A stretch of DNA of 58,868 nucleotides from assembly GCA_963205315.1 (NCBI GenBank), contig CAUJIO010000094.1:1-58868 (forward strand), given 5' to 3'. The stretch's first letter is position 1; every line of letters starts with the position of its first letter. The translations under genes and the position numbers were made by a program. Origin of the DNA: Pseudomonadota bacterium. GTDB lineage: Bacteria; Pseudomonadota; Alphaproteobacteria; Rhizobiales; Aestuariivirgaceae. Positions 1,292 to 17,597 of the stretch are shown here, piece after piece. The notes under the pieces were generated by a model, which did no database searches, had not been told where the DNA came from, and was given only the letters and a program-made list of their open reading frames with translations.

Positions 1292-3141
1292 AATACACGC
1301 CGGTCGAACATCCGCTGGACATGCCGGTTCAGGACCTGAAGGAATGGTCTGGCGAGCCGGTGGTTCTGTCGCGCGCTCGTTCGACATTTTACGCCCGCGT
1401 CTTTGTCTTCGGCCTTACGGCCGTGCTTACCGGTGCCGGCACCTATGGCATGTATCAAGTCATCAGCCCGGTGAATGTCACGGCACTCCAGGTGTTTTTT
1501 GCCAGCGTTTTTGCGCTGACCTTTACGTGGATCTCTTTCGCCTGCGCCAGCGCTTGCCTGGGTTTTCTGGTGCTGCTGCGCAAGAACAAGGTTCAGCAGC
1601 CTCACCTCGCGCCGCATGCCCGCATGGGCCGAACGGCATTGCTCATGCCGGTTTACAACGAGGATCCCCAGCGCGTGTTTGCGGTGCTGGAACAGATGGG
1701 ACGCGACCTATGCTGGCAGGGCGCATCGCGTCATTTCGACATCTTCGTCCTCAGCGACACCCGCAATTCCACCACGGCGCAGCAAGAAGAAAGTCTCGCC
1801 GTGGCCCTGCGGCGCACATTCGCCGGTGAAATGGGTGTGTTCTATCGCCGCCGCGCCGAGAACCACCATCGCAAGGCCGGCAACATCGCTGATTTCGTTA
1901 CGCGATGGGGCGGCGCGTACGATCATATGGTCGTGCTCGATGCAGACAGTGAAATGCGGGCCGAAACACTGGTGACCATGGCCCGCGCCATGGCTGGCGA
2001 CCGGAAGGCAGGTATCATCCAGACGCTGCCGCTGCTGCAGAACCGCTGGACGCCCTATGCGCGGATGACGCAATTCGCCGGTCGCGTCTATGGGCCGGTG
2101 GTGGCCGCGGGCCTGGCGTGCTGGCATGGCCGGGACGGGAACTATTGGGGCCACAATGCGATCATTCGCACGCGGGCCTTCGCCGAAGCAGCCGGCCTGC
2201 CGGAATTGAGCGGCCGCAAACCCTTCGGCGGGCATGTCCTCAGTCACGATTTCGTCGAGGCCGCATTGATGCGGCGCGCCGGTTGGGCGGTCTACATGCT
2301 GCCCTGGCTCGAGGGATCCTACGAAGAAACCCCGCCGTCGCTGATCGATCTTGCGGCGCGCGACAGGCGCTGGGCGCAAGGCAATCTTCAACATATCAAA
2401 ATCGTCGGTGCCCGCGGCCTGCACTGGGTCAGCCGTGTTCACCTCCTCCAGGGCATCATGTCCTATCTGGCGTCGCCGCTGTGGCTGTTGCTGCTGGTTG
2501 CAGGCCTCGTGCTGGCCACGATCGCCCGCTACACGGAGCCCAACTATTTTCCCAACGGCTTCTCGCTCTTTCCTGCATGGCCGGTGTTCGATCCGCAATT
2601 GGCGCTGCAATTGCTGGGCGTCACGGCGGCCGTTCTCTATCTCCCGAAGCTTCTGGGGCTGACCCTTGCGCTCACAGACCGCAGCCTGCGCAAAGGCTGC
2701 GGCGGAGCAACGGGATTGTTCAAGAGTGTCGCCGCCGAGACCGTTTTGTCGATGCTTCTGTCGCCGGTGATGATGATGATCCAGACGCGTTTCGTGCTGG
2801 ACGTATTGTTCGGACGGGACTCTGGCTGGAATGCACAAAATCGCAGCGAGGAAGCGCTGCCGTTCGCGGTCCCGCTCAGGCGCCACGCCCTGCATGTGCT
2901 GACAGGCCTGCTCTTTGGCGTCCTGTCCTTCACCATTTCCTGGCCGACGTTCTTCTGGTTCTTGCCGATCGTCATCGGCCTCGTCTCTGCACCTGTGGTG
3001 TCGTGGGCGACCGGCCTTCCCGCCCTGGGGCGCTGGATGTGGCGGGCCAATATCTTTCGCATTCCGGAGGAACAGCAGGCCGCGCCTGCTGCCGCCAACC
3101 TCGATGCCACCCCGGTTGTGGTGCTGGAAGCCGCCGAGTGA
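1264..3141 (+). CDS. opgH: Glucan glucosyltransferase OpgH
   Basis: Inner-membrane family 2 glycosyltransferase that polymerises UDP-glucose into the beta-1,2-linked backbone of periplasmic glucans. It has 625 residues, shorter than the ~850-residue enterobacterial form but normal for alphaproteobacteria. Two N-terminal membrane spans (about 40-105) precede a cytoplasmic GT2 domain with the LSDTRN and DADS (D226) acidic motifs and the RDRRW acceptor motif near 367-371. Several C-terminal spans follow (about 390-600). The ATG at 1264 has GGAG just upstream and overlaps the end of opgG. It forms a glucan unit with opgG and possibly the next gene. Confidence 0.95.
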   Translation: MALQVDQKLKYTPVEHPLDMPVQDLKEWSGEPVVLSRARSTFYARVFVFGLTAVLTGAGTYGMYQVISPVNVTALQVFFASVFALTFTWISFACASACLGFLVLLRKNKVQQPHLAPHARMGRTALLMPVYNEDPQRVFAVLEQMGRDLCWQGASRHFDIFVLSDTRNSTTAQQEESLAVALRRTFAGEMGVFYRRRAENHHRKAGNIADFVTRWGGAYDHMVVLDADSEMRAETLVTMARAMAGDRKAGIIQTLPLLQNRWTPYARMTQFAGRVYGPVVAAGLACWHGRDGNYWGHNAIIRTRAFAEAAGLPELSGRKPFGGHVLSHDFVEAALMRRAGWAVYMLPWLEGSYEETPPSLIDLAARDRRWAQGNLQHIKIVGARGLHWVSRVHLLQGIMSYLASPLWLLLLVAGLVLATIARYTEPNYFPNGFSLFPAWPVFDPQLALQLLGVTAAVLYLPKLLGLTLALTDRSLRKGCGGATGLFKSVAAETVLSMLLSPVMMMIQTRFVLDVLFGRDSGWNAQNRSEEALPFAVPLRRHALHVLTGLLFGVLSFTISWPTFFWFLPIVIGLVSAPVVSWATGLPALGRWMWRANIFRIPEEQQAAPAAANLDATPVVVLEAAE

Positions 3142-3225
3142 GGGTTTCGCCAAACCTTCACGTAATCGTCATACGACTGTTGAAAATCCTTTTTTTCGCC
3201 GTTTGATTCGGGCATTGAGCGCGCC

Positions 3226-4905
3226 ATGTCTGCGCCCGATATCACACTCGACCGCCCGGCGGTTCCCACCCGCCTCAATACGTTCAACGCCACGGTGCTC
3301 AAACTGCTGGTGTCCTATTGTATTCTGCTGGCGGTGAGTGCCTTCCTTGGACGGTGGACGCCGGACTATCTGCACGGCCGCGATCTGTGGCACTTCACGA
3401 TCTCCAGGATGGTCGTGCCGATGGTGATGCTGGGCGTCGCCGCCTCATTCATTCGGGTCGTTCCCGCCGCCCTGTTTACCGGTGCCGCCCTGCTCTTTGT
3501 CGGCACGATATCGGCCATCAAGCGGGAAGCAACGGGCGAGCCGTTTCAGGTCAGCGACATGTTCCTGGCCGGGCAGAGCCAGCACCTGCTGAACTATGTC
3601 GGATGGGACAAGTGGCTGATCGGAGCGGCCGTCGTTCCGGCGTCCTACTACAGCTTCACCAACTTCCGCTTCCGGCCCTGGAGCATTCCTCTTTTTGCGA
3701 TCTGCGTCGGGCTGCTGTCCACCTACCGGCTGGAACCGGTCGTGAAATATATCCACGACAATTCCTATCGCATCGGAGTCGAGAACCTGACGTTCAGCCA
3801 GGCTGAAAGCGAGCGGATGAACGGGCTCGCGACGCATCTGTATTTTTCCACCGCAGGCCTGCGCCTCAAGACCTTCAGCGAGGCCGAGGTCAAGGCTGCT
3901 CTCGATGGGCTCGACACCGATCCGCCGGTTCCCGTGCGCACGGCACCGCTGCCCGATATTTATGTCGTGCTGGGCGAAGCATGGTGGCGTGACCCGACGG
4001 ATGCAAAGTCACCGATCGACAAGCTCGTGAAAGCCGGTTTTGCCGAAGGCACCGGCATCTCGCCGGTCTATGGCGGCACGACGCCCAATGCCGAGTTTGA
4101 AGTTTTGACAGGCGTGCCCATCCGCAGCTTTCAGTCCGGCATCATTCCCTATCAGCACTACCTCGCCTATTTCAGCGAGCAGATGCGCAGCCTGCCGCGC
4201 CTGTTGGCGGAGCGCGGCTACCAGACACATGCCTTCCACAATTTCACGCCGCGGTTCTGGCTGCGCGATCAAGTCTATCCGCGCTTCGGCTTCGGCGGGT
4301 TCGACAGCATGGACGAGATGAAGGTGAGCATGCAGCCCAATGGCTGGCCCACCGATGAAGGCCTCTATGCGCAGTCTCTGAAATATTCCGACGAGGCCTC
4401 CCCACGGTTTCATTTCCTCGTCACCGTCCAGACGCATGGCCCCTTCAAGGAAGACAAGGACCACGACATCATCGACGGCAAGCCGCATCCCGGCATCACT
4501 GACTATCACACCCGTCTCGATGGCGCAGTTGACGACATGCTGGCCTTTGAGGCCGCACTCCGTGCCAAGGGCCGGCCTTTCGTGCTCCTGGCCTTCGGCG
4601 ATCATTTGCCGGGCCTCAGATTGCATCAGTGGAAATCCGGCATGAAGAGCGAGAGCGATCCGCGCCTGCATCAGGCGCCAGTCCTGGTGGCCAGCAACAG
4701 CGAAGACACCAAGGCCTTGATCGAGCGGCTGCAAGGCCGTCCCTTCACTTGCTTCGCGCCTACGCTGGTGGACTTCCTGCAACTTGGCGTGACGGACCGC
4801 TATTTCCGGCACAAGGCGAAGCATTGCGCTGCAGAGACGTTGGCCACGGTGCCGCCTGAGCCGGTTATTCAGAACCAGCTGTTTTCGGCCCGGCCCCTGC
4901 CCTGA
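3226..4905 (+). CDS. LtaS/OpgB-like phosphoglycerol-type transferase (sulfatase fold)
   Basis: 559-residue membrane enzyme with several N-terminal membrane spans (about 20-165) and a large extracytoplasmic alkaline-phosphatase-superfamily domain. Features of the LtaS/OpgB group are visible: the metal-binding strand DIYVVLGEAWW, the GGTTPNAEFE motif whose Thr (285/286) is the likely nucleophile, HNFTPRFW, and the C-terminal metal site FGDHLPG (D459, H460). It follows opgH by 84 bp on the same strand, so the inferred role is adding a charged group (phosphoglycerol or similar) to periplasmic glucans. The donor and substituent cannot be read from sequence. A sulfatase or phosphoethanolamine transferase is a less likely alternative. 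Confidence 0.75.
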   Translation: MSAPDITLDRPAVPTRLNTFNATVLKLLVSYCILLAVSAFLGRWTPDYLHGRDLWHFTISRMVVPMVMLGVAASFIRVVPAALFTGAALLFVGTISAIKREATGEPFQVSDMFLAGQSQHLLNYVGWDKWLIGAAVVPASYYSFTNFRFRPWSIPLFAICVGLLSTYRLEPVVKYIHDNSYRIGVENLTFSQAESERMNGLATHLYFSTAGLRLKTFSEAEVKAALDGLDTDPPVPVRTAPLPDIYVVLGEAWWRDPTDAKSPIDKLVKAGFAEGTGISPVYGGTTPNAEFEVLTGVPIRSFQSGIIPYQHYLAYFSEQMRSLPRLLAERGYQTHAFHNFTPRFWLRDQVYPRFGFGGFDSMDEMKVSMQPNGWPTDEGLYAQSLKYSDEASPRFHFLVTVQTHGPFKEDKDHDIIDGKPHPGITDYHTRLDGAVDDMLAFEAALRAKGRPFVLLAFGDHLPGLRLHQWKSGMKSESDPRLHQAPVLVASNSEDTKALIERLQGRPFTCFAPTLVDFLQLGVTDRYFRHKAKHCAAETLATVPPEPVIQNQLFSARPLP

Positions 4906-5016: not shown

Positions 5017-5793
5017 TCACGCCACGATGCAGCGCGACCCACCGCGCTGTATCGCCGCCAGCAGCTCGCCCTCGGGCAGGCGGTCGGTGACCAGCGCCAG
5101 CCGTTCCGACCACGGACCGTAGACCGACAGCGAAGCGCGCTCGAATTTCGTGTGATCGGCAAGAACCATGGTTTCGTTCGAACGGCGCATCATGGCGCCA
5201 TAGATCAGGCTGGGGCCTACGCCAGCATCGCTCGGACCTTCGGGCATCAGGCCACTGGCTCCCAAAAACGCCTTGCCGGCCCTATAACGCTGCAAGGCCT
5301 CGATGGTGTCGGGTCCGTGGATGAGGCCTTCGCGGCTGTCATACTGCCCCGGCAACATCAGCACCTTGTGGAAGGGATTGCTCGCCAGTGCGACGGCCAC
5401 CGAGAAGGCGTGGGTGATGACGGTCAGGTGATCGCGCTCGGCGGCAAGCCGCCGGGCAAAAATCGTGGTCGTGGCCCCGCCGCCGATCATCAGGATATCA
5501 TTTGCCTCGACGAGCCGCACGGCGGCGCCTGCAATACGCTCGCGCTCCTCGACCATCAATTTCTCACGTTCGGCGAGTGCCGGCTCGAACGCCACGGGGC
5601 GCATGGCGCCGCCGTAGGTGCGGTTGATCAGGCCGCGCTCGTCGAGTTCGGACAGATCGCGCCTTACCGTTTCGGTCGAGACACTCAGCAGCATGGCGAG
5701 TTCGTTGACACGCAAAGTCGGCGTGGCACGGAGTTCCGCCACGATGCGGGAATGGCGGTCGGATTTGTTGAGCTTCATCTGAGGCGCTGTCAT
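5017..5793 (-). CDS. DeoR/GlpR-family transcriptional regulator
   Basis: 258-residue regulator. The N-terminal DeoR winged helix is clear: the recognition helix is in VSTETVRRDLSELDERG (about 38-54), followed by the family signature RTYGGA. The C-terminal DeoRC sensor domain, of the ribose-5-phosphate-isomerase-like fold that binds sugar phosphates or similar phosphorylated ligands, carries GGGATTTIFA and VLADHTKFER. It is divergent from the microcompartment operon with about 180 bp between starts. Inference: it represses that operon and responds to a phosphorylated intermediate, plausibly phospho-aminopropanol. The ligand is not knowable from sequence. Confidence 0.88.
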   Translation of the reverse strand: MTAPQMKLNKSDRHSRIVAELRATPTLRVNELAMLLSVSTETVRRDLSELDERGLINRTYGGAMRPVAFEPALAEREKLMVEERERIAGAAVRLVEANDILMIGGGATTTIFARRLAAERDHLTVITHAFSVAVALASNPFHKVLMLPGQYDSREGLIHGPDTIEALQRYRAGKAFLGASGLMPEGPSDAGVGPSLIYGAMMRRSNETMVLADHTKFERASLSVYGPWSERLALVTDRLPEGELLAAIQRGGSRCIVA

Positions 5794-5901
5794 CGGCCTA
5801 TCCTAGAGCAACGTTCGTTGAGTCCGGAACAGTTGGAAGTTCGGGCACACCGGCGCCCGTCTTCACAGAACATTCGTCGATAATGGTCACATTTTGCCCG
5901 C

Positions 5902-5966
5902 TTGACAACATGATTATGTTGTGACTTGATAGGTAACAGTTGTCATGTCGGTCATTTTTTGACCGA
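5902..5966 (+). promoter_or_regulatory. Candidate promoter and operator of the BMC operon
   Basis: TTGACA at 5902-5907 is a consensus -35 box, though no strong -10 is seen at the expected spacing. Overlapping it is the perfect palindrome ACAACAT-GATT-ATGTTGT (5905-5922), a likely repressor site for the divergent DeoR protein. A second perfect inverted repeat, TCGGTCA-TTTTT-TGACCGA (5948-5966), ends inside the ribosome-binding site (GAGGGAG) of the next gene and could form an mRNA hairpin that masks it. Roles are inferred from position and symmetry. Confidence 0.5.
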
Positions 5967-5976
5967 GGGAGCAAAA

Positions 5977-7260
5977 ATGTACGATTACGGCCTCTTCAAG
6001 TTCGAGTCGAAGCAGGATCTGTTCGACAAGGCCATCCGCTTCTGGAATCCGGACAAGACGAAGTTCTGGCAGAAGGCGGGTATCGATCTGGTCATCGACC
6101 GGCGCGAGGGCTATTTCCTCTACGACATGTCGGGCCGCCGCCTGATCGACCTCCACCTCAATGGCGGCACCTATAATTTTGGCCACCGCCATCCCGAATT
6201 GATCGAGACCCTGAAAGGCGCGCTCGACTACTTCGACATCGGCAACCACTGGTTCCCATCGGTTGCACGCGCGGCGCTGGCCGAGTCGCTCATCAACATT
6301 TCCCCTGGCATGAGCTACGCGGTGTTTGCACCAGGTGGTGCCGAGGCCGTGGACATCGCCATCAAGAGTGCGCGCTACGCCACCAAGCGCCGCAAGGTGG
6401 TATCGATCATCAAGGGCTATCACGGCCATTCCGGCCTGGCCGTGGCAACCGGCGACGACCGTTTCACCAAGATCTTCCTTGCTGACCAGCCCGACTCCTT
6501 TGCCCAGGTTCCCTTCAACGACATCGAAGCCATGGAACGCGCGCTGAAGGGCAACGATGTTGCGGCGGTGATCATCGAAACCATCCCCGCCACCTATGGC
6601 TTTCCCATGCCGAAAGACGGCTATCTCAACGCCTGCAAGGCGCTGTGCGAGAAGTATGGCGCGATGTACATCGCCGACGAGGTGCAGACCGGCCTCATGC
6701 GAACCGGCAAGATGTGGGGCTGGCAGGCCTATGGTGTCCAGCCGGACATCATGGTGACAGCCAAGGGCCTGTCAGGCGGCCTGTACCCGATCAGCGCCTG
6801 CCTGGTGAACGAGAAGGCGGGGGGCTGGCTGCACGAGGATGGCGCAGCGCATATTTCAACCTCCGGAGGCGCCGAGCTTGGCTGTGTGGTCGCCCACAAG
6901 GTGATCGAAATGCTGCTACGGCCGGAAGTCATTGCCAATGTTCAAACGGTCACCGATTACATGGCCGAAAGCATGCAGGAGATGATTGCCCGCCACGGCG
7001 ACATCTTCACCGGTGTCCGGCAGAAGGGTGTGATCCTCGGGCTCGAGTTCAGCAATCATCCGGAAGGTGCCGTGTTCGTCTCGCGCGCACTCTATGAGCA
7101 TGGCGTATGGGCAATCTTTTCATCGCTCGACAAGCGCGTGCTGCAATGGAAGCCGGGCGTTCTGCTCACCCAGGAAACCTGCCAGGACATCATGGATCGC
7201 TTCGATGCCGCCATGCCGCGTGCGCGCGAATTGCTGCATCAGGCAAAGAAGGCCGCTTGA
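5977..7260 (+). CDS. Class III PLP aminotransferase-fold enzyme, probable phospho-amino-alcohol lyase of the BMC
   Basis: 427-residue class III (omega) aminotransferase-fold protein. The signature ADEVQTGLMRTG is present, and the PLP lysine is in VTAKGLSGG (K263). The ATG at 5977 is chosen over an upstream in-frame TTG or ATG because GAGGGAG lies directly before it. It is the first gene of a microcompartment operon that also carries an APH-type kinase. In the known RMM/aminoacetone compartment, a class III enzyme removes ammonia and phosphate from phospho-1-amino-2-propanol to give propionaldehyde, so a phospho-lyase is inferred rather than a transaminase. A true transaminase remains possible. 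Confidence 0.85.
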   Translation: MYDYGLFKFESKQDLFDKAIRFWNPDKTKFWQKAGIDLVIDRREGYFLYDMSGRRLIDLHLNGGTYNFGHRHPELIETLKGALDYFDIGNHWFPSVARAALAESLINISPGMSYAVFAPGGAEAVDIAIKSARYATKRRKVVSIIKGYHGHSGLAVATGDDRFTKIFLADQPDSFAQVPFNDIEAMERALKGNDVAAVIIETIPATYGFPMPKDGYLNACKALCEKYGAMYIADEVQTGLMRTGKMWGWQAYGVQPDIMVTAKGLSGGLYPISACLVNEKAGGWLHEDGAAHISTSGGAELGCVVAHKVIEMLLRPEVIANVQTVTDYMAESMQEMIARHGDIFTGVRQKGVILGLEFSNHPEGAVFVSRALYEHGVWAIFSSLDKRVLQWKPGVLLTQETCQDIMDRFDAAMPRARELLHQAKKAA

Positions 7261-7262
7261 AC

Positions 7263-8774
7263 ATGACCCAGCCCTTGATGAAAGTTCCGGACGCGCAATT
7301 CGAACGCGCCAAACTGATGCTGGACCGGGCCCGCTGGGCCGCCAGCCGCATGCAGAAACTGGACCGTGTTGCGATACGCCGCATTTGCGAGGCCGTTGGT
7401 AATGCCGGCCACGCCAAAGCGCAGCACTACGCCGAATGGGCGGTGCGCGAGACCGGCATGGGCGTCATCGAGCACAAGCGCATCAAGAACGAGGCCTGTT
7501 CCCGGGCGCTCGTCGAACTTTATGCCGGCGAGGATTTCATCAGCCCACGGATCGATGCGGCACGAAAGATTGTCGAGTTGCCCCGCCCGGCCGGCGTTGT
7601 CTTCGCGCTGATCCCGGTGACCAATCCGGTGGCGACCGTCTTCTTCAAGACGCTGCTGGCGCTGATGACGCGCAATGCCATCATTCTCTCTCCACATCCG
7701 CAAGCCAGGGCCTGCAGTGCCGATGCAGCGCGCCTTCTCGCCGAGGCCGCGAGAGCGGCGGGCGCTCCCGACGGCGCCATCCAGGTCATTGACGAACCCA
7801 ATATTCCGCTGCTCGAAAAGCTGATGGCCGACGAGCGGGTCGACCTGATCATCGCCACAGGCGGCCCTTCCGTGGTGAAGGCCGCATACCGCTCCGGCAA
7901 TCCGGCGCTTGGCGTCGGGCCCGGCAATGCGCCGGTGGTCGTCGATGACACAGCCGACATCCGGCTTGCCGCAAAGCGCATCGTCGCGTCGAAGAGCTTT
8001 GACAACTCCATTCTCTGCACCAATGAATCGACGGTGCTGGCCTTCGCCTCGATCGCCGACCGGCTTCTCGAGGCAATGAAGGCGGAGAAGGCCCACATCT
8101 GCACGGCCGAGGAAACGGCAAAGCTGCGCAATCTGCTGTTCACCGAAACCGGCTTCAACATTGCCATGATCGGCAAGGATGCAAGCGTCATCGCCAGGGA
8201 GGCCGGTTTCAATGCGCCCGGCGCAAAGATCCTTGTGACGCCCGTAGACCTCGTCCAGCCGGAAGAAAAACTGGTGCGTGAGAAGCTCTGCCCGGTCCTG
8301 GCTTTCGCAAGGGTCCAGACGATCGACCAGGCGATCTCCAGCGCCCGCTCGATGATGCGCAAATCCGGAAAGGGGCATTCTGCCGCGATCCACTCGAAAT
8401 CTGAAGCCAATATCCTCGCCTTTGCCGCTGCCGTTCCCGCACTCCGGATCGCCGTCAACACGGGCTGCTCGCTTGGCGCGTCCGGATACGAAACCAACCT
8501 TGGCCCCTCGATGACCATCGGCACGGGCTTTGCTGGTGGCTCGTCGATCGGCGAAAATCTTACTCCACACCACCTCCTGCATTATGCCCGCATCGCCTAC
8601 AACAAGGATGCGTCCGAGACGTTCGGCAATTTTGCGGGTCTTGATCCGCTGAACCTGCCGAAGCGCATCGCGCCCGTTGCCTCACTGGCTGTCGACAATT
8701 CCAATGACAGCGAATTGCGGCGTGAACTGCGGCGCATCATCCTCGAAGAACTCAAAGCGGTCATGGCAGCCTGA
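7263..8774 (+). CDS. CoA-acylating aldehyde dehydrogenase (PduP/EutE-like), BMC cargo
   Basis: 503-residue aldehyde dehydrogenase of the acylating kind, converting an aldehyde (propionaldehyde expected) plus CoA and NAD+ to the acyl-CoA. Seen: IPVTNPVATVFFK in the nucleotide-binding part, GVGPGNAPVV, and the catalytic Cys in ILCTNES (C252). The last 20 or so residues, beginning SELRRELRRIILEEL, form an amphipathic helix after a polar linker. This is the form of a BMC encapsulation peptide, here C-terminal. The gene starts 2 bases after the previous stop and is followed 6 bases on by a shell gene, so it is the signature enzyme of this shell. Confidence 0.92.
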   Translation: MTQPLMKVPDAQFERAKLMLDRARWAASRMQKLDRVAIRRICEAVGNAGHAKAQHYAEWAVRETGMGVIEHKRIKNEACSRALVELYAGEDFISPRIDAARKIVELPRPAGVVFALIPVTNPVATVFFKTLLALMTRNAIILSPHPQARACSADAARLLAEAARAAGAPDGAIQVIDEPNIPLLEKLMADERVDLIIATGGPSVVKAAYRSGNPALGVGPGNAPVVVDDTADIRLAAKRIVASKSFDNSILCTNESTVLAFASIADRLLEAMKAEKAHICTAEETAKLRNLLFTETGFNIAMIGKDASVIAREAGFNAPGAKILVTPVDLVQPEEKLVREKLCPVLAFARVQTIDQAISSARSMMRKSGKGHSAAIHSKSEANILAFAAAVPALRIAVNTGCSLGASGYETNLGPSMTIGTGFAGGSSIGENLTPHHLLHYARIAYNKDASETFGNFAGLDPLNLPKRIAPVASLAVDNSNDSELRRELRRIILEELKAVMAA

Positions 8775-8780
8775 TCAACC

Positions 8781-9380
8781 ATGGCAACACTTCGCTCATA
8801 CATCTTCATCGACCAGCTGCAGCCGCAGACCATGTGCTATCTGGGCTCGTGGATCCGTGGTTCGCTGCCGCGTTCCAACATGGCGGCGCAGGTCATCGAA
8901 GTCGCACCCGGCCTCGACATCGAAGCATTGACGGACGTGGCGCTGAAGGCGGCGGACGTGCAGGCCGGAATTCTCGTGGTCGAGCGGCAGTTCGGCTATC
9001 TCGAAATCCATTCGCGCGATGTGGCGGCGGTGAAGGCCGCAGCGGAGGCTGTGCTCGACGCGATGGGCATGACAGCAGACAAGGCCATGCGTCCCAAGAT
9101 CCTGGCATCGAAGGTTGTCACACGGATCGACCCCAACCATGCCTTCCTCATCAACCGGAACAAGGGTGGATCGATGATCCTCGGCGGAGAGACGCTGTTC
9201 GTGCTCGAAACCGAGCCCGCCGCCTATGCCATTCTGGCCGCCAACGCAGCCGAAAAAGCGGCGACGATCAAGATCGTCGACTACCGCATGATCGGAGCGA
9301 CAGGACGCCTCTATCTCTCGGGAACGGAGTCGGAAGTCCGCGCCGCCGCCACTGCCGCCCAAGCGGCGCTTGGAGTCTAA
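8781..9380 (+). CDS. BMC-T shell protein (tandem BMC domains), first copy
   Basis: 199-residue shell protein made of two fused BMC domains (about 1-95 and 100-199), which assembles as a pseudohexameric trimer. Seen: YIFIDQLQPQT at the start, AGILVVERQFGYLEIH in domain 1, and NRNKGGSMILGGETLFVLE and NAAEKAATIKIVDYRMIGATGR in domain 2. It resembles the second BMC-T of this operon (10357) along its length but has its own pore-region loop (KGGSM). RMM-type compartments characteristically carry two BMC-T, one BMC-H and one BMC-P, which is exactly the set here. Confidence 0.93.
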   Translation: MATLRSYIFIDQLQPQTMCYLGSWIRGSLPRSNMAAQVIEVAPGLDIEALTDVALKAADVQAGILVVERQFGYLEIHSRDVAAVKAAAEAVLDAMGMTADKAMRPKILASKVVTRIDPNHAFLINRNKGGSMILGGETLFVLETEPAAYAILAANAAEKAATIKIVDYRMIGATGRLYLSGTESEVRAAATAAQAALGV

Positions 9381-9381
9381 C

Positions 9382-9777
9382 ATGCCGCTGCAACCCGACA
9401 TGGCCCAGGAACTCCGCAGCATGGTACGCGAGGTGCTGCGGGACGTGATGGCCACCCGTACGCAGCCTGCGGGGGCTGCAACCGAGGCCGTACGCATTGC
9501 CAATGATAGCGACCTGGCCGCGTTCGTCGCACGCATTGTCGAACCTGCAACCCTCGAGCGGATTAGGTCCGGCCACCTGCGTTTCACGCTTGGTGCTGGT
9601 ACTGGCGCTGCCCTACCCTCTTTGCCGTCAGAGGTTCTCACCGGTGTCGTCACCGAGCAGAAGCTCGACAGGCTGGCAGGCGCGCGTACGCTTGTTCTCG
9701 GTCCGGGTGCAGTCTTGACACCGCTGGCGCGCGACAAGGCGCGCAAGCTTGGACTGAAACTTGAAAGGAGACGCTAG
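9382..9777 (+). CDS. PduM-like microcompartment protein with N-terminal encapsulation-type helix
   Basis: 131 residues, ATG at 9382 directly after the preceding stop. The N-terminus (about 6-22, MAQELRSMVREVLRDVM) reads as an amphipathic helix of the encapsulation-peptide kind and is followed by a linker rich in A, T and Q. The C-terminal part, EQKLDRLAGARTLVL...VLTPLARDKARKLGLKL, resembles the C-terminus of PduM and of EutQ/EutT-type proteins (gene-family memory, not a search). Function is unknown: a structural adaptor between shell and core, or a small cargo enzyme. It lies between shell genes, and its stop abuts the BMC-P start. Confidence 0.75.
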   Translation: MPLQPDMAQELRSMVREVLRDVMATRTQPAGAATEAVRIANDSDLAAFVARIVEPATLERIRSGHLRFTLGAGTGAALPSLPSEVLTGVVTEQKLDRLAGARTLVLGPGAVLTPLARDKARKLGLKLERRR

Positions 9778-10032
9778 ATGCTGAAGGCGACAGTGACGGG
9801 CCGCATCTGGTCCACTAAAAAGATTTCGGAAGTGCCTGCTGGCTCGATCCTCGAGGTCCAGATCGACGATTCAAACTCACGCCTCCTCGCCTTCGATCCG
9901 CTTGGCTGCGGCGAAGGCGAGAAGGTGATGATCGCAACGGGCTCCGTGGCTGCGGCCTGGTTCCCGGGAAAATCCCCGCCCATCGATGCGCTGATCATCG
10001 GCTCCATCGATGAAGCGGCCACCAAGAAATAG
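9778..10032 (+). CDS. BMC-P vertex protein (EutN/CcmL family)
   Basis: 84-residue EutN/CcmL-family protein that forms pentamers capping the vertices of a polyhedral shell. Seen: the N-terminal strand MLKATVTGRIWSTKK, then DPLGCGEGEKVMIATGSVAA and the conserved end PIDALIIGSID. The ATG directly follows the previous TAG, and AAAGGAG lies upstream inside that gene. It is the only vertex protein in the locus. Confidence 0.95.
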   Translation: MLKATVTGRIWSTKKISEVPAGSILEVQIDDSNSRLLAFDPLGCGEGEKVMIATGSVAAAWFPGKSPPIDALIIGSIDEAATKK

Positions 10033-10059
10033 TCTGCAACGCTCACTACGGAGGACACC

Positions 10060-10341
10060 ATGAGCAACGCAATCGGAATGATCGAAACCAAGGGTTACGT
10101 TGCCGCAATGGCGGCGGCTGACGCGATGGTGAAGGCGGCGAATGTGACCATCGTCGGCCGCGAACAGGTGGGAGATGGCCTGGTTGCCGTCATCATCAAC
10201 GGCGACGTAGGTGCGGTGAAGGCCGCGACCGAAGCCGGAGCCGAAGTGGCGGGCCAGATCGGCACGCTGGTCTCGGTGCACGTGATCCCGCGTCCGCATG
10301 CCGACGTGTCGAAGCACTTCACGTCCGGTTCTTCAAAATAA
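10060..10341 (+). CDS. BMC-H hexameric shell protein
   Basis: 93-residue canonical single-BMC-domain protein (PduA/CcmK-like) that tiles the shell facets. Seen: [25 protein letters not shown] at the N-terminus and [13 protein letters not shown], ending in [10 protein letters not shown] good ribosome site (ACGGAGGA) lies 6-7 bases before the ATG. It is the only BMC-H gene in the window. A single BMC-H is a known trait of RMM-type compartments, and it means the selective facet pores all come from this protein plus the two BMC-T proteins. Confidence 0.96.
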
Positions 10342-10356
10342 TCGCGGAACCAGACC

Positions 10357-11010
10357 GTGGCATCGCCGAGAGCGGCGGCAAAGGGTGAACTCCGGGTCTT
10401 TCTCACTGTAGAAGATCTGCAGCCGCAATTTGCCGCCTACATGGGAACACCGACGCGGGCGCGAGGCTATCCGCCAAGTGCCGGCCAGCATTCACTCATC
10501 ATCGAGGTCGCACCCGGCCTGATGATCGAGCGGGTGATGGATCTGGCGCTGAAGGCCGACCCCGATCTGGAGCCTGGCATTCTGTTCGTCGAACGGCAGT
10601 TCGGCATTCTGGAGATCCACGGGAGCGACAAGGAGCGCTTGCTGGCGGCTGGCCGCGCCGTGCTGGCAGGCATCGGCTTGACCGAGGGCGACCAGCTGGC
10701 GCCGCGTATCCTGTTCACCGATGTGATCGAAAACATCGCCGACCAGCACGCCGTCATCATCAACCGGAACCGCCAGGCCTCGATGGTGATGCCGGGTGAG
10801 ACTTTGCTCGTCTGCGAGATGGTTCCCGCACTTTATGCCGCCATCGCCGCGAACGCCGCCGAGAAGGCCGCACCACGGCTGACGCTCGTCGATGTGCAGA
10901 TGATCGGCGCGGCGGGGCGCCTCTACATGTCCGGCACGACGGCGGATGTGGAACGGGGGCTTGCGGAGATCGAACGAGTTCTGGCAGGAATCGAAGGACG
11001 CAATTCCTGA
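10357..11010 (+). CDS. BMC-T shell protein (tandem BMC domains), second copy
   Basis: 217 residues with two fused BMC domains after a longer N-terminal extension (first ~15 residues ASPRAAAKGELR). It starts with GTG at 10357, 15 bases after the BMC-H stop. Seen: LTVEDLQPQFAAYMG, PGILFVERQFGILEIHG, NRNRQASMVMPGETLL and NAAEKAAPRLTLVDVQMIGAAGR. The pore-region loop (RQASM) differs from that of the first BMC-T (KGGSM), suggesting different pore selectivity or gating. It is followed 10 bases on by the kinase gene. Confidence 0.92.
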   Translation: MASPRAAAKGELRVFLTVEDLQPQFAAYMGTPTRARGYPPSAGQHSLIIEVAPGLMIERVMDLALKADPDLEPGILFVERQFGILEIHGSDKERLLAAGRAVLAGIGLTEGDQLAPRILFTDVIENIADQHAVIINRNRQASMVMPGETLLVCEMVPALYAAIAANAAEKAAPRLTLVDVQMIGAAGRLYMSGTTADVERGLAEIERVLAGIEGRNS

Positions 11011-11020
11011 AGGTGACCCC

Positions 11021-12031
11021 GTGAAAGACTTCGACGCACTAGCCCACGATGAGCAGCTGGCAATTCTTCTCGACGTGGCGCGCAGTGCCATCGGACGTTA
11101 CGACCTGCCCTCCGGCGCTAGCGTCAGCATGCTGAATCTTTCGGAGAACGCGACCTACAAGGTCGAGGCGCCGGATGGGCGGCGCTGGGCTATGCGGATC
11201 CATCGCGACGGCTATCATTCGCGCACCGCCATTGCCTCCGAACTGGCCTGGCTGATGGACTTGCGCCAGACCGGCGTGGTGGCAACGCCTGTTCCGGTCA
11301 AAGGCCGCGACGGTGAGATCATTCAGGACGTCGATCATCCGCGCCTCCCACGGCCGCGGCATGTGGTGCTGTCGGAATGGGAGACGGGTGCCGAACCCGG
11401 CATTGGTGAAGACCTCTCGGAACCGTTTGAAGTGCTCGGTGAGGTCACCGCGCGCATGCATGTCCACGCGCGCCAGTGGAAGCGGCCGTCATGGTTCACG
11501 CGCCTCACCTGGGATTTCGAGACGGCGCTTGGCGAGGACAAGCCGCATTGGGGCCGCTGGCGCGACGGCGTCGGCATGGATGCGGCCAAGGAACGGCTGT
11601 TCGGTCGCACCGTCGATCTGATCGGCGCGCGGCTCAAGGCCTACGGCAAGGGGCCCGAACGCTTCGGCCTCATCCACTGCGATCTGCGCCTGGCCAATCT
11701 GCTCATCGACGGCAAGACCGTGAAGGCGATCGACTTCGACGATTGCGGCTTCGGCTGGTACATGTATGACGCCGCAACGCCGGTCTCATTCTACGAGCAT
11801 GAGCCGCAGGTTCCTCACCTGATCGAATCCTGGAAGAAGGGCTACCGCAAGGTGCTGGCGCTGCCGAAGGCCGACGAGGATGAAATCCCCACCTTCATCA
11901 TGCTCCGCCGCATCCTGCTTGTGGCGTGGGTCGCCTCGCACATCGAAGCGGAATTCCCGCGGTCGCTTGGCGCGGGCTTCACCGAGCAAACGACCGGTTT
12001 GTGCGAGGCCTATCTCCGCCGCTACGCCTGA
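11021..12031 (+). CDS. APH-fold kinase, probable 1-amino-2-propanol kinase
   Basis: 336-residue aminoglycoside-phosphotransferase-fold kinase. The catalytic loop LIHCDLRLANLLID and metal-binding IDFDDCGFGW are intact. The GTG at 11021 is preceded by GAAGGTG; an in-frame upstream start would run into the shell gene. In RMM-type loci an APH kinase phosphorylates (S)-1-amino-2-propanol to make the substrate of the class III lyase, and this gene sits in the same operon. A homoserine/choline-kinase-like or antibiotic kinase role is less likely given the context. Its 3' end overlaps the convergent SDR gene by 10 bp. Confidence 0.85.
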   Translation: MKDFDALAHDEQLAILLDVARSAIGRYDLPSGASVSMLNLSENATYKVEAPDGRRWAMRIHRDGYHSRTAIASELAWLMDLRQTGVVATPVPVKGRDGEIIQDVDHPRLPRPRHVVLSEWETGAEPGIGEDLSEPFEVLGEVTARMHVHARQWKRPSWFTRLTWDFETALGEDKPHWGRWRDGVGMDAAKERLFGRTVDLIGARLKAYGKGPERFGLIHCDLRLANLLIDGKTVKAIDFDDCGFGWYMYDAATPVSFYEHEPQVPHLIESWKKGYRKVLALPKADEDEIPTFIMLRRILLVAWVASHIEAEFPRSLGAGFTEQTTGLCEAYLRRYA

Positions 12032-12792
12032 GCCAGCGCCTCGAGGCTTTCGGGCAGGATCTGACCGCCATCGACGATGATCGTCTGTCCGGTCACGTAG
12101 GCTGCTTCCTTCGAGGCAAAATAGAGGGCGGCGTGGCCAATATCGTCAACGTGGCCCAACCGCTTCAACGGCACCGAGGCGGCCATGCTACGCTGATACT
12201 CTTCGCCCATCCCGGCAAGCCCTTCTGTGACGATATTGCCGGGCAGGACCGCGTTCACGGTAATGGCGTATTTCGCCAGTTCGATGCAGGCAGTGCGCAT
12301 GAAGCCGAGCTGGCCAGCCTTTGTGGCGCCGTAGTGCGTCCAGCCCGGAAATCCGGTGACCGGGCCGGTGATCGAAGACGTCAGCACGATGCGGCCCTGA
12401 TCAGATCTTTTGAGATACGGAATGGCGGCCTTCACCGAGTGGAAGGTGCCCTTGAGATTGGTGTCGTTCACCTCGTCCCATTGCTCGGACGTCATCTCCT
12501 CCAGCCGCGCCGGCGGAAAGATGCCGGCATTGGCGCAGAGCACGTCAAGGCCGCCATTGCGCGCGCTCACGTCCTGCATGGCCTTCTCCATGCTGGCAAG
12601 CGAAGTGACGTCACCCGAGAGGCCAAAGGCGCCATGGCCTATCTCCCTGGCCGCGGCCTCGGCCTGATCGGCATGCCGCGACAGGATGGCCACCTTGGCC
12701 CCGGCCTGCGCGAAGACGCGCGCGATGCCCTTGCCGATGCCTTTCGATCCGCCGGTGACGACGACCGAGCGTCCTTTCAGTGATTGCGTCAT
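12022..12792 (-). CDS. SDR oxidoreductase, probable 1-amino-2-propanol (amino-alcohol) dehydrogenase
   Basis: 256-residue short-chain dehydrogenase. Seen: the NAD(P) site TGGSKGIGKGI, the NAG strand (LCANAGIFPP), the Ser of SSITG, the YGATK catalytic pair, and a C-terminus with VDGGQILPES. The LDVLCANAGIF, PGNIVTEGL and VDGGQ..PES segments match what I recall of the amino-alcohol dehydrogenases of Rhodococcus and the mycobacterial RMM locus, which interconvert aminoacetone and 1-amino-2-propanol. It converges on the kinase gene with a 10-bp overlap, and the ABC transporter genes precede it on the same strand. FabG-like ketoreductase is the alternative. Confidence 0.82.
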   Translation of the reverse strand: MTQSLKGRSVVVTGGSKGIGKGIARVFAQAGAKVAILSRHADQAEAAAREIGHGAFGLSGDVTSLASMEKAMQDVSARNGGLDVLCANAGIFPPARLEEMTSEQWDEVNDTNLKGTFHSVKAAIPYLKRSDQGRIVLTSSITGPVTGFPGWTHYGATKAGQLGFMRTACIELAKYAITVNAVLPGNIVTEGLAGMGEEYQRSMAASVPLKRLGHVDDIGHAALYFASKEAAYVTGQTIIVDGGQILPESLEALAQA

Positions 12793-12822
12793 GTGTCTGC
12801 TCCCAGGTTCTGCACGTGAAAT

Positions 12823-13629
12823 CTATTCTGCGGCCTTGGCGCGGCGGGTCGCGAGGATCAGGCCATAACCGCCGATCAGCAGGATCGCCGCGCCCACGGT
12901 CGACACGGTGCCGAGCACCGGAACGCCTGGCGTATATCCTGCCACCATCTTGGCATAGAGATATTCCGGCACCGTCGTGTCGGCGCCTGTGGTGAAGAGC
13001 GACAATGGGAAATTGCCCCATGAGAGCAGGAAGGCGAACAGCGCACCGGAGAACAGTCCGGGAAAGAGGACCGGAAGCGTTACTTCGCGCAAGACCTGCC
13101 AGCGCGATGCACCGAGATCAAAGGCTGCCTCTTCCAGAGCCGGATCGAAACTGTAGACCTGGATCGAAATGACGAGCGTCACCACCGGCACGATCCACAC
13201 CAGATGCGCGAAGACCGCGGTCATCCAAGACAGGGGCAGGCCCAGCGTATTGAACCACAACAGCAGCGCCAGCCCCAGAACCGATTGCGGAAAGAAGATG
13301 GGCAGGAGAATGACCTTCTGATAGAGCGAGCGGCCCTTCCAGTCATAGCGCGCGAAAGCCATGGCGCCGAAAAAGGCGATCGCCACGGCGATCACCGTGA
13401 CGCAGAGCGCAATGATGATGGACGTGGAGAGCAGCTGACGGATCTCGATTGAACTGAAGGTTTTATGCCACCACTCCAGCCCCCACTTCGAAATGGGAAA
13501 CTGGAAATAGCGGCTCGCCGTCAGCGACGCGAGCGTGATGCAGATCGTCGGCAGATAAACGAAGACGATGACTGCGATGGTCCACACCGTGATGAGCGCG
13601 TGGCGCAGGCGCTGTTGCCGGTCTTGCAT
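12823..13629 (-). CDS. ABC transporter permease, PotC-type
   Basis: 268-residue inner-membrane permease with six predicted spans. The binding-protein-dependent transport loop EEAAFDLGASRWQVLREVTLP is present; it docks on the ATPase. It is the second permease of a complete spermidine/putrescine-type importer (binding protein 15621, ATPase 14480, permease 13633), with only 3 bases to the preceding permease gene. Given the amino-alcohol microcompartment next door, the substrate may be a small amino alcohol or amine rather than a polyamine (inference). Confidence 0.9.
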   Translation of the reverse strand: MQDRQQRLRHALITVWTIAVIVFVYLPTICITLASLTASRYFQFPISKWGLEWWHKTFSSIEIRQLLSTSIIIALCVTVIAVAIAFFGAMAFARYDWKGRSLYQKVILLPIFFPQSVLGLALLLWFNTLGLPLSWMTAVFAHLVWIVPVVTLVISIQVYSFDPALEEAAFDLGASRWQVLREVTLPVLFPGLFSGALFAFLLSWGNFPLSLFTTGADTTVPEYLYAKMVAGYTPGVPVLGTVSTVGAAILLIGGYGLILATRRAKAAE

Positions 13630-13632
13630 CGG

Positions 13633-14475
13633 CTATCTCCGCCCCAGGAACTTGTCGAGATCGAAGCGCCGCAGCGCCAGGATTACAAGAACACCGACCA
13701 CCAGCATCAGCAGCACGGAAAGCGCGGCTCCCAATGGCCAATTCTGCGCGTAGGTGAAGGCGATCTCGATATCATGCGAAATCGGAATGACCTGTTGTCC
13801 GCCCAGAACCTTGGCCTCGGCGATTGCGCCGACGGCGAGGACAAATGTCAGCAGAAATCCGATGGTGATGCCAGGCATCGACAACGGCAGCTCGACTTCG
13901 GTGAAGACCTGCCAGCGCGAGGCTCCGAGATCGAACGCGGCATCGCGGGTTTCGTTCGGCACCATGCTGATGCCCAAGGTCATGGGAAAGAGCATGAAAG
14001 GCAAATAGACATAGACCATGCCGAAGATAATGGCCGGAAGCGTGAAGAGGATACTCTCGAGCTGCCAACCGAACATCGACTTCAAGGTGCCGAGCAAAAC
14101 GCCATTCTTGATGAAGAAAAGCACCCAGCCATAGAGCCGGATGTTTTCGGACACAAAGAGCGGAATGGTGAAGAGCAGCGTGAGCAGTGTCGCCCATCGC
14201 CCGAAGACCCGCACCAGGCCATAGGCGACAGGGTAGCAAATCAACGCGAGCACCACGACGGCGATGAAGGCGAGACCGAGCGACCAGAGGAATGAAATGT
14301 AGCTGCTGCTCTCGAAGATCGTCCTATAGTTCTCGAGCGTCGGCGCGCCGCCAAAAGAAAAGCTGCGCGGCGGCATGAAACTGAACCAGATGACGGCGAT
14401 GAGCGGTGCCGCGAACCCTGCGAGCAGGAACAGCACCACTGGAATTGCCGACCGTTCTCCGTGTCCAAGGCGCAT
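13633..14475 (-). CDS. ABC transporter permease, PotB-type
   Basis: 280-residue inner-membrane permease with about six spans and the coupling loop DAAFDLGASRWQVFTEVELP. It lies 4 bases after the ATPase stop and 3 bases before the second permease, in a tightly packed operon. It forms a heterodimeric channel with the PotC-type permease. The N-terminal span is in SAIPVVLFLLAGFAAPLIAVIW, followed by a periplasmic loop rich in F and S. Confidence 0.9.
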   Translation of the reverse strand: MRLGHGERSAIPVVLFLLAGFAAPLIAVIWFSFMPPRSFSFGGAPTLENYRTIFESSSYISFLWSLGLAFIAVVVLALICYPVAYGLVRVFGRWATLLTLLFTIPLFVSENIRLYGWVLFFIKNGVLLGTLKSMFGWQLESILFTLPAIIFGMVYVYLPFMLFPMTLGISMVPNETRDAAFDLGASRWQVFTEVELPLSMPGITIGFLLTFVLAVGAIAEAKVLGGQQVIPISHDIEIAFTYAQNWPLGAALSVLLMLVVGVLVILALRRFDLDKFLGRR

Positions 14476-14479
14476 GGCG

Positions 14480-15547
14480 TCAGTCCGTTACCAGGATGGC
14501 GTCGCCCGCATCCCAGCCGATCGTCACGTCGTCGTCGAGCTTGCCTTTGAATGCCTGCTGCCGGAGTTTCTCCACCGCGAACACGTTCCGGCCGACGCGC
14601 ACCTGATACTGGATGCGTGAGCCAAGTACGTATTCATTGTAGACGCGGCCCGCCATGGCGTTGTCGGCCTCGCCTGCATTGGCCAGGAAACGAAGGAATT
14701 CCGGCCTGATGACGAGATGGCCCTGGGTGAAACCCGGCGGAATGGCCGGTGGCTTGAGGCGCGCACCCGTTTCGGCCACATGCAGCAGCCCATCCTTGGC
14801 CAAGGATACCGGCACGACATTCACATCACCGACAAACTCGGACACAAACCGCGTATTGGGAGCGGAGTAGATTTCATGCGGGCTCCCGACCTGAACGAGC
14901 TTGCCGGCCCGCATCACGCCAATGCGGTCGCTCATCACCATCGCTTCTTCAAGCGAATGGGTGATGTAAACGAAAGTCTTCTTCGTTTCGCGATGGATGT
15001 CCTTCAGCTCTTTCTCAAGCGTCTTTCTGAGCTTGTAGTCGATGGCAGACAGCGGCTCATCGAAGAAGAGGATTTGCGGATCGTAGGCCAGTGCGCGCGC
15101 CAAGGCCACGCGCTGACGCTCGCCACCTGAGCATTTCAGGACATTCTTGCCATAGTATGATTGCGGCAGGCGCAACAGGTCTATGAGCTGCAGGGCGCGC
15201 GCCTTGCGGGATTCAGGGGTTTCGCCCCTTATCTTCAAGGGGAATTCGATATTCTGCCCGACCGTCCGATGCGGGAACAGGGCCAAGGACTGGAATACCA
15301 TGCAGGTCGGCCGCTTGTTGGCCGGCAGATCGTTGATGCGCTCGCCGCGCAGCAAAATGTCGCCGCTCGTCGGTGTGTCCATGCCGGCCAGCATGCGCAA
15401 CATGGTCGTCTTGCCGGAACCCGAAGGTCCGACGATGGTGAAGAACTCGCCTTCCGCAATATCGAGATCGATCGAATCGACAGCAGCATGTGGCCCGAAC
15501 ATCTTGCGAACCGATTTCAGCGACAGGATCGGCAGTGATTGCATCAT
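14480..15547 (-). CDS. ABC transporter ATP-binding protein, PotA-type
   Basis: 355-residue ATPase energising the importer. Walker A is GPSGSGKTT, the Q-loop is VFQSLALFPH, the signature is CSGGERQRVALARAL and Walker B is ILFFDEPLSAID. A C-terminal TOBE regulatory domain follows (about 270-355). The signature motif reads CSGGE instead of the usual LSGGQ, a tolerated variant. The start could be either of two consecutive ATG codons. It is the only polyamine-type ATPase in the window and could also serve the ATPase-less system at 29191-31915. Confidence 0.92.
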   Translation of the reverse strand: MMQSLPILSLKSVRKMFGPHAAVDSIDLDIAEGEFFTIVGPSGSGKTTMLRMLAGMDTPTSGDILLRGERINDLPANKRPTCMVFQSLALFPHRTVGQNIEFPLKIRGETPESRKARALQLIDLLRLPQSYYGKNVLKCSGGERQRVALARALAYDPQILFFDEPLSAIDYKLRKTLEKELKDIHRETKKTFVYITHSLEEAMVMSDRIGVMRAGKLVQVGSPHEIYSAPNTRFVSEFVGDVNVVPVSLAKDGLLHVAETGARLKPPAIPPGFTQGHLVIRPEFLRFLANAGEADNAMAGRVYNEYVLGSRIQYQVRVGRNVFAVEKLRQQAFKGKLDDDVTIGWDAGDAILVTD

Positions 15548-15573
15548 CCTCTGCGAGGCCTTTCAATAAACGT

Positions 15574-15604
15574 GCAACCCCCGCACGGAGGTTGCAGGGG
15601 TTGC
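15574..15604 (-). terminator. Intercistronic stem-loop after the binding-protein gene
   Basis: Perfect 8-bp repeat GCAACCCC / GGGGTTGC within the 73-base gap between the binding-protein and ATPase genes. Hairpins at this place in ABC operons commonly protect the binding-protein mRNA or reduce read-through, giving excess binding protein. No T-tract follows, so partial attenuation or RNA stabilisation is more likely than full termination. Confidence 0.5.
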
Positions 15605-15620
15605 GGTCGTGGCAATGTGA

Positions 15621-16787: not shown

Positions 16788-16810
16788 GTCTCACTCCCTG
16801 TGATTTTGTC

Positions 16811-17589: not shown

Positions 17590-17597
17590 GCTGTCTC

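Follow-up and report, generated by a model that had tools for sequence, protein, structure and literature searches.

An RMM2-type locus in an alphaproteobacterium

The window analysed here, the whole 58,868-base contig CAUJIO010000094.1 of an Aestuariivirgaceae genome (Alphaproteobacteria; assembly GCA_963205315.1, 4.67 Mb, 99.86% complete), contains a bacterial microcompartment (BMC) locus with the gene set of the RMM compartment of Mycobacterium and Rhodococcus, facing a convergent run of genes that includes a B12-dependent diol dehydratase. Judged from gene content and linkage, the locus is best explained as an RMM2-type amino-alcohol metabolosome, a reading that we regard as fairly probable. 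The dehydratase probably belongs to this amino-alcohol module, as suggested by its co-occurrence with the class III pyridoxal phosphate (PLP) enzyme of the locus, its retention where the shell is missing and its pocket residues Asp301 and Ala336. The new part is this convergent run and its dehydratase. The first-pass annotation confined the locus to positions 5017-12792 and saw its novelty in an RMM compartment outside Actinobacteria, which is already in print (PMC6620236, PMC8156839), including RMM2 in the alphaproteobacterium Paracoccus yeei (PMC8156839), so that this headline is not new. The interval itself is real, but it omits the dehydratase, hydrolase and transporter genes, that is the RMM2-like part, and a 131-residue protein inside it was missed.

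On the forward strand the genes follow the order class III PLP enzyme, aldehyde dehydrogenase (ALDH), BMC-T, 131-residue protein, BMC-P, BMC-H, BMC-T and APH-family kinase, with a divergent DeoR-family regulator upstream, while the minus-strand run (12022-20281) converges on the kinase gene and has a short-chain dehydrogenase/reductase (SDR) as its last gene. The nine genes already named between 5017 and 12792 are all intact open reading frames in their expected places, their families were assigned from Pfam, NCBIfam and PDB matches, and the assignment of an RMM-type locus to an alphaproteobacterium also held, the closest named records being Aestuariivirga and Hyphomicrobiales metagenome-assembled genomes (MAGs). 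The shell set predicted from the sequence, two BMC-T, one BMC-H and one BMC-P, was borne out by one-to-one PDB matches to the M. smegmatis RMM shell proteins. The first BMC-T (8781-9380, plus strand, as are all shell genes) matches MSM0275 best (5l39, 1.1e-86; next 1.9e-53), the second (10357-11010) MSM0271 (5suh, 1e-82; next 2e-46) and the EutN/CcmL-type BMC-P vertex protein (9778-10032) MSM0273 (5l37, 1.1e-29; next 2.4e-6), while for BMC-H (10060-10341) the match to MSM0272 (5l38, 1.2e-40) is outranked only by an entry named 'BMC-H tandem fusion protein'. Orthology to MSM0271, MSM0272, MSM0273 and MSM0275 is thus indicated by the best natural PDB matches. Both BMC-T proteins also resemble CcmP, a tandem BMC-T protein, by its family model (1.9e-66 and 4.3e-56, each under its cut-off), and the Pfam BMC domain matches the first (1.6e-10), not the second. 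Genome-wide, only two BMC-domain matches were found at E <= 0.001, both inside the locus.

Scanning contigs with a 14-row BMC-T alignment gave 321 relatives among 451 stretches, of which 80 were kept. With identity thresholds set by hand, and with many loci cut by contig ends, the ALDH, the 131-residue protein and BMC-P were each found in 79 of these, BMC-H in 77 and the second BMC-T in 75; the pathway genes follow with 66 (PLP enzyme), 61 (kinase) and 52 (SDR), and the accessory genes with 29 (at least three Pot genes), 17 (hydrolase) and 17 (dehydratase). This recurrence shows that the grouping of genes at RMM loci is more than chance. The 80 relatives comprise 56 Pseudomonadota, 20 Actinomycetota, one Spirochaetota, one Fidelibacterota and two unplaced records (phylum names partly from record titles), so that the gene set recurs in alpha- and gammaproteobacteria, actinobacteria and single MAGs of other phyla; a 2021 catalogue likewise lists RMM2 outliers in Epsilonproteobacteria and Marinimicrobia (PMC8217296). 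The order ALDH-T-X-P-H-T of the window is the same on plasmid pRHL2 of Rhodococcus jostii, where the T-X-P-H shell block is duplicated, both copies having the same protein accessions (12560-19490 of that stretch, L033). An actinobacterial-type RMM2 locus was also noted in a MAG labelled Spirochaetaceae (L069), by transfer or mis-binning.

The convergent run and its dehydratase

Read from its outer end, the minus-strand run encodes a fused large and medium subunit of a B12 diol dehydratase (18014-20281; PF02286 7.4e-216, PF02288 3e-21) and its small subunit (17598-18017; PF02287 2.3e-43), a short form that lacks the first 38 positions of the PduE model. There follow an isochorismatase-family cysteine hydrolase (16894-17589; Pfam 7.4e-35; motifs VIDVQ, VVTKT and DQCVSS), whose best NCBIfam models, biuret amidohydrolase and RutB, score far below cut-offs, a weakly PotD-like periplasmic binding protein (15621-16787; PotD model 4.7e-7, far below its cut-off; no Pfam match), an ATP-binding cassette (ABC) ATPase resembling PhnT2 and PotA (14480-15547; ABC_tran 1.4e-30; both NCBIfam models best but below cut-offs), a PotB-like (13633-14475; BPD_transp_1 7.2e-10) and a PotC-like permease (12823-13629; BPD_transp_1 3.1e-12), and the SDR (12022-12792). 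Diol dehydratase genes beside an RMM core and on the opposite strand, as found here, distinguish RMM2 from RMM1 in the definition of Axen 2014, which prefers a compartment that does not use them (PMC4207490).

Dehydratase, hydrolase, transporter and SDR stay together across relatives in several orientations, and in L060, L064, L154, L202/L203, L205, L206 and L215/L216 dehydratase and RMM core share a strand. In L057, L059, L149, L150 and L198 a permease-type protein, confirmed as a member of the amino-acid-permease family for L149 and L150, replaces the ABC transporter between SDR and hydrolase, which suggests import of a small amine.

The 69 family genomes include 25 with a BMC-T match, 30 with the dehydratase, 31 with the PLP enzyme and 24 with an RMM-type ALDH at >=50% identity; two more ALDH matches reach 32-35%. 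The dehydratase is present in 23/25 genomes with BMC-T and in 7/44 without it (Fisher p 3.7e-10), and in 29/31 with the PLP enzyme and 1/38 without it (p 5.6e-16); within the 44 genomes without BMC-T it occurs in 6/8 with the PLP enzyme and in 1/36 without it (p 2.7e-5; shared descent is ignored in all three tests). A class-wide sample of 385 genomes held the first BMC-T (E 1e-70) in 11 and the dehydratase in eight, with seven shared, the own genome included; four of the seven belong to a single genus, and in one, G231, no more than a piece of the dehydratase was found, on a different contig. At the level of the phylum, six of 398 genomes have the dehydratase, namely the own genome, one with RMM genes (G105), one with the shell-less unit described below (G705), and G534, G757 and G790.

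The substrate pocket

Compared with the Klebsiella enzymes, the window dehydratase keeps the catalytic residues Gln141, His143, Glu170, Glu221, Gln296, Asp335 and Ser362 (K. oxytoca numbering). The canonical pair of the C3 pocket, Ser301 and Gln336, is replaced by Asp and Ala. The C3 hydroxyl of glycerol points at Ser301 in one conformation, and an S301A/Q336A mutant shows a Km for 1,2-propanediol raised from 0.06 to 2.4 mM (PMC7674605). Among dehydratases linked to RMM, defined by an RMM-type PLP enzyme or kinase in the same stretch or the next one, all 24 readable rows have Asp301 and 23 have Ala336, with Ser336 in one (L089); three of these rows (L060, L062, L205) are near or full duplicates. 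Ser301/Gln336 was found in 28/28 canonical controls, made up of seven and a further 21 that were matched over the large subunit only, a separate medium subunit being seen only in three with flanks and several having internal stops in the matched stretch. Against a dehydratase that follows the pathway enzymes stands an order-level sample around a Nocardioides genome, in which 22/245 genomes have it, 20 of these with the canonical pair. Rows at contig ends or without letters were dropped as unreadable (L048, L053 with Ala336 only, L057, L085, L190, L207), as was L094, where three short open reading frames at a contig end give Ser at 301 but non-conserved letters in the other columns and were taken as misaligned. 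L151 consists of two open reading frames with Asp301 seen and 336 unreadable, and the second one of L162 was dropped. The short-flank loci L126-L145, L184-L188, L194 and L214 (same genes or other family genomes) were left uncounted and have Asp301/Ala336, with Asp301/Thr336 in L145.

On a dehydratase tree of 55 rows, built without both columns and with duplicates and short rows excluded, position 301 requires one change and position 336 six. The alphaproteobacterial RMM-linked Asp/Ala rows form one clade and the actinobacterial ones another, each with an Asp/Thr relative nearby (the label 'other' on six alphaproteobacterial rows denotes flanks that were not fetched). In two clades, then, RMM linkage is accompanied by the pair Asp301 and Ala336, whereas either residue taken singly has a wider distribution. 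L147, L148 and L204 show a third variant of the fused enzyme, Ser301/Ala336, as a second copy in two genomes of the window's genus and once elsewhere. The reactivase PF08841 was found in none of the 12 alphaproteobacterial genomes searched, the own genome included (one, that of L058, shows no dehydratase in its locus), and is present in all three genomes behind L061, L089 and L091.

Probable loss of aldehyde dehydrogenase and shell

In nine loci (L149, L150, L151, L198 and L209-L213) the genes of PLP enzyme and kinase abut or overlap without exception, whereas in the window they are separated by 3.8 kb of ALDH and shell genes. The dehydratase is kept in seven of the nine genomes, in four of them within the same stretch, and L149, L150, L151 and L198 retain the convergent run of SDR, transporter, hydrolase and dehydratase; L198 belongs to another family of the same order, and the stretch of L209 keeps only PLP enzyme, kinase and SDR. 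A BMC domain was absent from 10/10 searched genomes without a shell locus, these being the nine and G036, with G006 positive as control; three of the ten are incomplete (G005 66%, G009 82%, G036 87%). On a 46-row tree of the PLP enzyme, made by a quick method and with long branches flagged, the shell-less rows are scattered, giving seven changes between shell and no shell, of which at least three are forced by well-supported (starred) branches. With shell-bearing relatives on all sides, this scatter points to repeated loss of the shell. Adjacency of PLP enzyme and kinase is by itself no proof of loss in L210, since in L159 and L161 the two genes lie side by side and ALDH and shell are still present a few kb further along; for L210 the genome-wide BMC search carries the argument. 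Taken together, the comparison of loci suggests that ALDH and shell can be absent from one inherited enzyme module, the shell being optional. The flanking genes of L149 (a sugar-type transporter set and a non-RMM ALDH upstream of the dehydratase), L156 and L199 indicated no substrate. In literature on dehydratases and amino-diols, pocket residues, amino-2-propanol and RMM in Alphaproteobacteria, judged mostly by titles and the beginnings of abstracts, no description of an Asp301 dehydratase or of RMM shell loss was recognised.

Core enzymes, the 131-residue protein and the regulator

The RMM-type identity of the enzymes, as first annotated, holds in part. The class III PLP enzyme (5977-7260, plus strand; likely start 5977; Pfam Aminotran_3 2.2e-74) is 56-62% identical to that of 16/20 kept actinobacterial and most gammaproteobacterial RMM loci, and groups in the tree with the PLP proteins of other RMM loci, but is only 22-26% identical to those of R. 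jostii (L033), L100 and L103. It is proposed to act as an amino-alcohol-phosphate phospholyase, a role that we assume for it together with the kinase. In L100 (Vibrio sp.) and L103 (Leucobacter ruminantium) the shell and ALDH are of the RMM kind; these two loci have a class III enzyme of another kind, 49-53% identical to that of Agrobacterium or R. jostii, and are possibly RMM compartments with another substrate. The APH-family kinase (11021-12031, plus strand; Pfam APH 2.8e-22), proposed to be an (S)-1-amino-2-propanol kinase, matches PDB 6ef6 at 4e-86 (next 9e-14), which we take to be the M. smegmatis RMM kinase of Mallette and Kimber, the entry name being generic. To the kinases of other RMM loci it is mostly >=42% identical, falling to 34% in L103 and 37% in R. 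jostii. For the SDR (minus strand), the proposed 1-amino-2-propanol dehydrogenase, the top PDB matches are 6ci8 (1.7e-86) and 6ci9 (4.3e-86), presumably also M. smegmatis RMM enzymes from Mallette and Kimber under generic entry names; the Ser/Tyr/Lys motif is intact, and NCBIfam assigns the protein to FabG/SDR above cut-off.

The ALDH (7263-8774, plus strand; likely start 7263) is probably of the acylating type, with acetaldehyde-CoA dehydrogenase models scoring 425 and 369 bits, below the cut-off in each case, and has the catalytic Cys motif. Its amphipathic C-terminal tail (about 8709-8771) resembles an encapsulation peptide and belongs to a conserved C-terminal helix, with a LRRELRRIILEEL-type tail in relatives. 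The only other targeting-like element seen is the N-terminal helix of the 131-residue protein (9382-9777, plus strand), which lies between the first BMC-T and BMC-P and was counted in relatives at >=25% identity. This protein consists of an encapsulation-like N-terminal helix, a variable linker and a small C-terminal domain (AlphaFold model: pLDDT 85, pTM 0.40, helix 5-25), and is a candidate cargo or scaffold protein. The window copy matches no named family in Pfam or NCBIfam and no PDB fold at E <= 0.001; PF15953 (PDU_like), weakly matched in 3/37 members (best E 0.01), was too weak and was not used.

The divergent DeoR-family regulator (5017-5793, minus strand; Pfam DeoRC 1.7e-36, HTH_DeoR 9.9e-17) is separated from the PLP gene by a gap with a perfect 7-bp inverted repeat, ACAACAT-N4-ATGTTGT (5905-5922), a candidate DeoR operator; GACAAC..GTTGT also occurs in 4/15 other DeoR/PLP gaps extracted, two of the 15 being empty. 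In place of the GntR regulator and permease of actinobacterial loci, the locus has DeoR and an ABC transporter, a replacement that reads as lineage variation and also appears in other proteobacterial RMM loci.

Proposed pathway and alternative explanations

Conversion of aminoacetone or 1-amino-2-propanol to propionyl-CoA, the route already proposed for RMM in print and taken over by the first-pass annotation, would fit the gene content of the locus. A small amine would be imported by the ABC transporter, aminoacetone and 1-amino-2-propanol would be interconverted by the SDR, and 1-amino-2-propanol would be phosphorylated by the kinase, after which elimination of phosphate and ammonia by the class III enzyme would yield propionaldehyde. 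Retained in the shell through its C-terminal tail, the ALDH would form propionyl-CoA, and its NADH would be usable by the SDR. The dehydratase, with its acidic and probably enlarged C3 pocket and without the PduE N-terminal extension, would feed the same route from a related diol; two pocket residues and gene linkage suggest that it perhaps acts on a cationic 1,2-diol. The isochorismatase-family hydrolase may free the amine from a conjugate. Going further, and more speculatively, RMM2 could be viewed as one catabolic module for amino-diols and amino-alcohols, the Asp301 and Ala336 dehydratase as a distinct natural kind of B12 enzyme that binds substrates with a cationic group at C3, such as 3-amino-1,2-propanediol or its N-substituted forms, and ALDH and shell as a separable cassette lost repeatedly within one genus while the chemistry was kept; we put this wider proposal forward as tentative and doubtful as a whole.

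The same genes could also form a propionaldehyde organelle with two entries, where the dehydratase would convert 1,2-propanediol to propionaldehyde in parallel to the kinase and lyase route and both would feed the shelled ALDH. All diol dehydratase catalytic residues are conserved, P. yeei TT13, which bears RMM2, grows on propylene glycol (PMC8156839, PMC5773746), and Axen 2014 named a bifunctional BMC as an alternative (PMC4207490); however, the authors of the P. yeei work inferred a pyruvate route and noted no pdu operon (PMC5773746), and the pocket here holds Asp301/Ala336, whereas the S301A/Q336A mutant, which has Ala and not Asp at 301, shows the raised Km for 1,2-propanediol (PMC7674605). 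Together with the short small subunit and the dehydratases retained without a shell, this makes such a double entry rather unlikely. The dehydratase operon might also adjoin the RMM genes while serving a function of its own, as Axen 2014 preferred for RMM2 from an argument on strand (PMC4207490). This agrees with the opposite strand in the window, with the unlinked dehydratase of four family genomes and with its absence from the flank of many RMM loci; against it stand the relatives in which the dehydratase shares the strand of the core, its co-occurrence with the PLP enzyme even without a shell, the presence in its gene run of the very SDR proposed for the RMM pathway, and the shell-less unit of L198 in another family. 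We find this reading unlikely.

The class III enzyme might instead be an aminotransferase, with a route via lactaldehyde or methylglyoxal as in published scenarios (PMC6620236, PMC4207490); the former, Ravcheev 2019, reports the compartment under the name 'Aut' from Actinobacteria, Firmicutes and Proteobacteria and puts forward routes by way of a transaminase. The class III fold of the enzyme and its nearest NCBIfam and PDB names, which are transaminases, speak for this, but a published kinase acts on (S)-1-amino-2-propanol, and kinase and PLP genes abut in the shell-less loci, as expected for a kinase and phospholyase pair, which makes the aminotransferase unlikely.

Several observations count against the amino-alcohol metabolosome and the place of the dehydratase in it. 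Asp301 also occurs in fused dehydratases without RMM genes (with Thr or Cys336), some beside sugar-type transporters, and Ser301/Ala336 in three unlinked ones (L147, L148, L204), so that neither residue alone marks the pathway. The family counts and tests take no account of shared descent, and three of the six dehydratase genomes of the phylum sample (G534, G757, G790) have no RMM gene in the stretch examined. The examined flank of 29/42 relatives with >=18 kb of sequence holds no dehydratase, which means that the RMM core does not need it, although presence in these 42 is a lower bound (for L051 the gene falls immediately beyond the examined stretch and appears in L146). Two shell-less genomes with the PLP enzyme (G019, G046) have no dehydratase, and in G053, G054, G055 and G057 it is separated by about 1 Mb or more, or sits on a different contig. 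Among the enzymes, the class III protein of R. jostii is only 25% identical to that of the window, and the match of the SDR is unspecific, 3rih (9e-86) and 3pk0 (6e-85) being within two orders of magnitude of 6ci8 and 6ci9. The comparison with M. smegmatis homologues therefore stood for the four shell proteins, whose best natural matches are RMM, and did not single out the SDR as an amino-alcohol dehydrogenase. Finally, the C-termini of PLP enzyme, kinase and SDR, and the N-termini of the PLP enzyme, showed no targeting peptide and no difference between shell-bearing and shell-less loci, so that encapsulation of these three enzymes is unsupported.

The RMM2 dehydratase was noted in 2014 and has been given no role in the parts of the RMM literature covered here. 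The joint inheritance of dehydratase, kinase and PLP enzyme, and the Asp301/Ala336 signature in two dehydratase clades, reduce the matter to a simple enzyme assay. A genus whose species have or lack ALDH and shell but share kinase, PLP enzyme and SDR, and in most cases the dehydratase, offers a natural experiment on the purpose of a metabolosome shell.

Neighbouring genes

Beyond the dehydratase, the minus strand (20373-25491) encodes a DUF1349 protein, a carbon-nitrogen hydrolase, a fused dihydroxyacetone kinase, a GntR/UTRA regulator and a further SDR. Of these, the DUF1349, hydrolase and dihydroxyacetone kinase genes (20.4-23.6 kb) were dropped as parts of the module, since neither L146 nor L165, the two relatives examined, shows a match to them next to the dehydratase. 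Upstream, 26-4905 carries glucan synthesis genes (MdoG, a family 2 glycosyltransferase and a sulfatase-fold protein), the latter two presumably MdoH-like and phosphoglycerol-transferase-like, respectively. No Rfam match at gathering scores was found in positions 1-30000 of the window.

Comparison with known systems

With the RMM1/Aut loci of Mycobacterium and Rhodococcus the window shares two BMC-T, BMC-H, BMC-P, the 131-residue type of protein, an acylating-type ALDH, class III PLP enzyme, APH kinase and SDR, and in both no phosphotransacylase is among the genes named in the locus. It differs in having DeoR for GntR, a polyamine-type ABC transporter for the permease, the SDR on the other strand, a class III enzyme 25% identical to that of R. 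jostii, and an added diol dehydratase and isochorismatase-family hydrolase. The RMM core with diol dehydratase genes on the opposite strand is common to the window and RMM2 (Axen 2014; P. yeei), but no PF08841 reactivase was found in the window's genome and its dehydratase clade stands apart from the actinobacterial RMM2 loci compared, the P. yeei locus and its dehydratase lying outside this comparison.

A homologous dehydratase with conserved catalytic residues links the window to the Pdu microcompartment and glycerol dehydratase (PduCDE, DhaBCE), from which it departs by its fused large and medium subunits, Asp301/Ala336, the lack of a reactivase and the missing PduE N-terminal extension. 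Shell-less clusters on plasmids of Agrobacterium cucumeris (L034, 13983-21072) and Shinella zoogloeoides (L035, 13980-21069) likewise encode, as a single run of genes, a fused Asp301 dehydratase (65% identical) with its small subunit, a kinase, a class III enzyme and an SDR. An assignment of their kinase and class III enzymes, the latter of another clade, to the RMM ones was rejected, with 25-26% identity for the PLP enzyme and no kinase match at 1e-8. These clusters differ from the window further in their sugar-type ABC transporter, in Thr336, and in having no shell gene annotated in the stretch.

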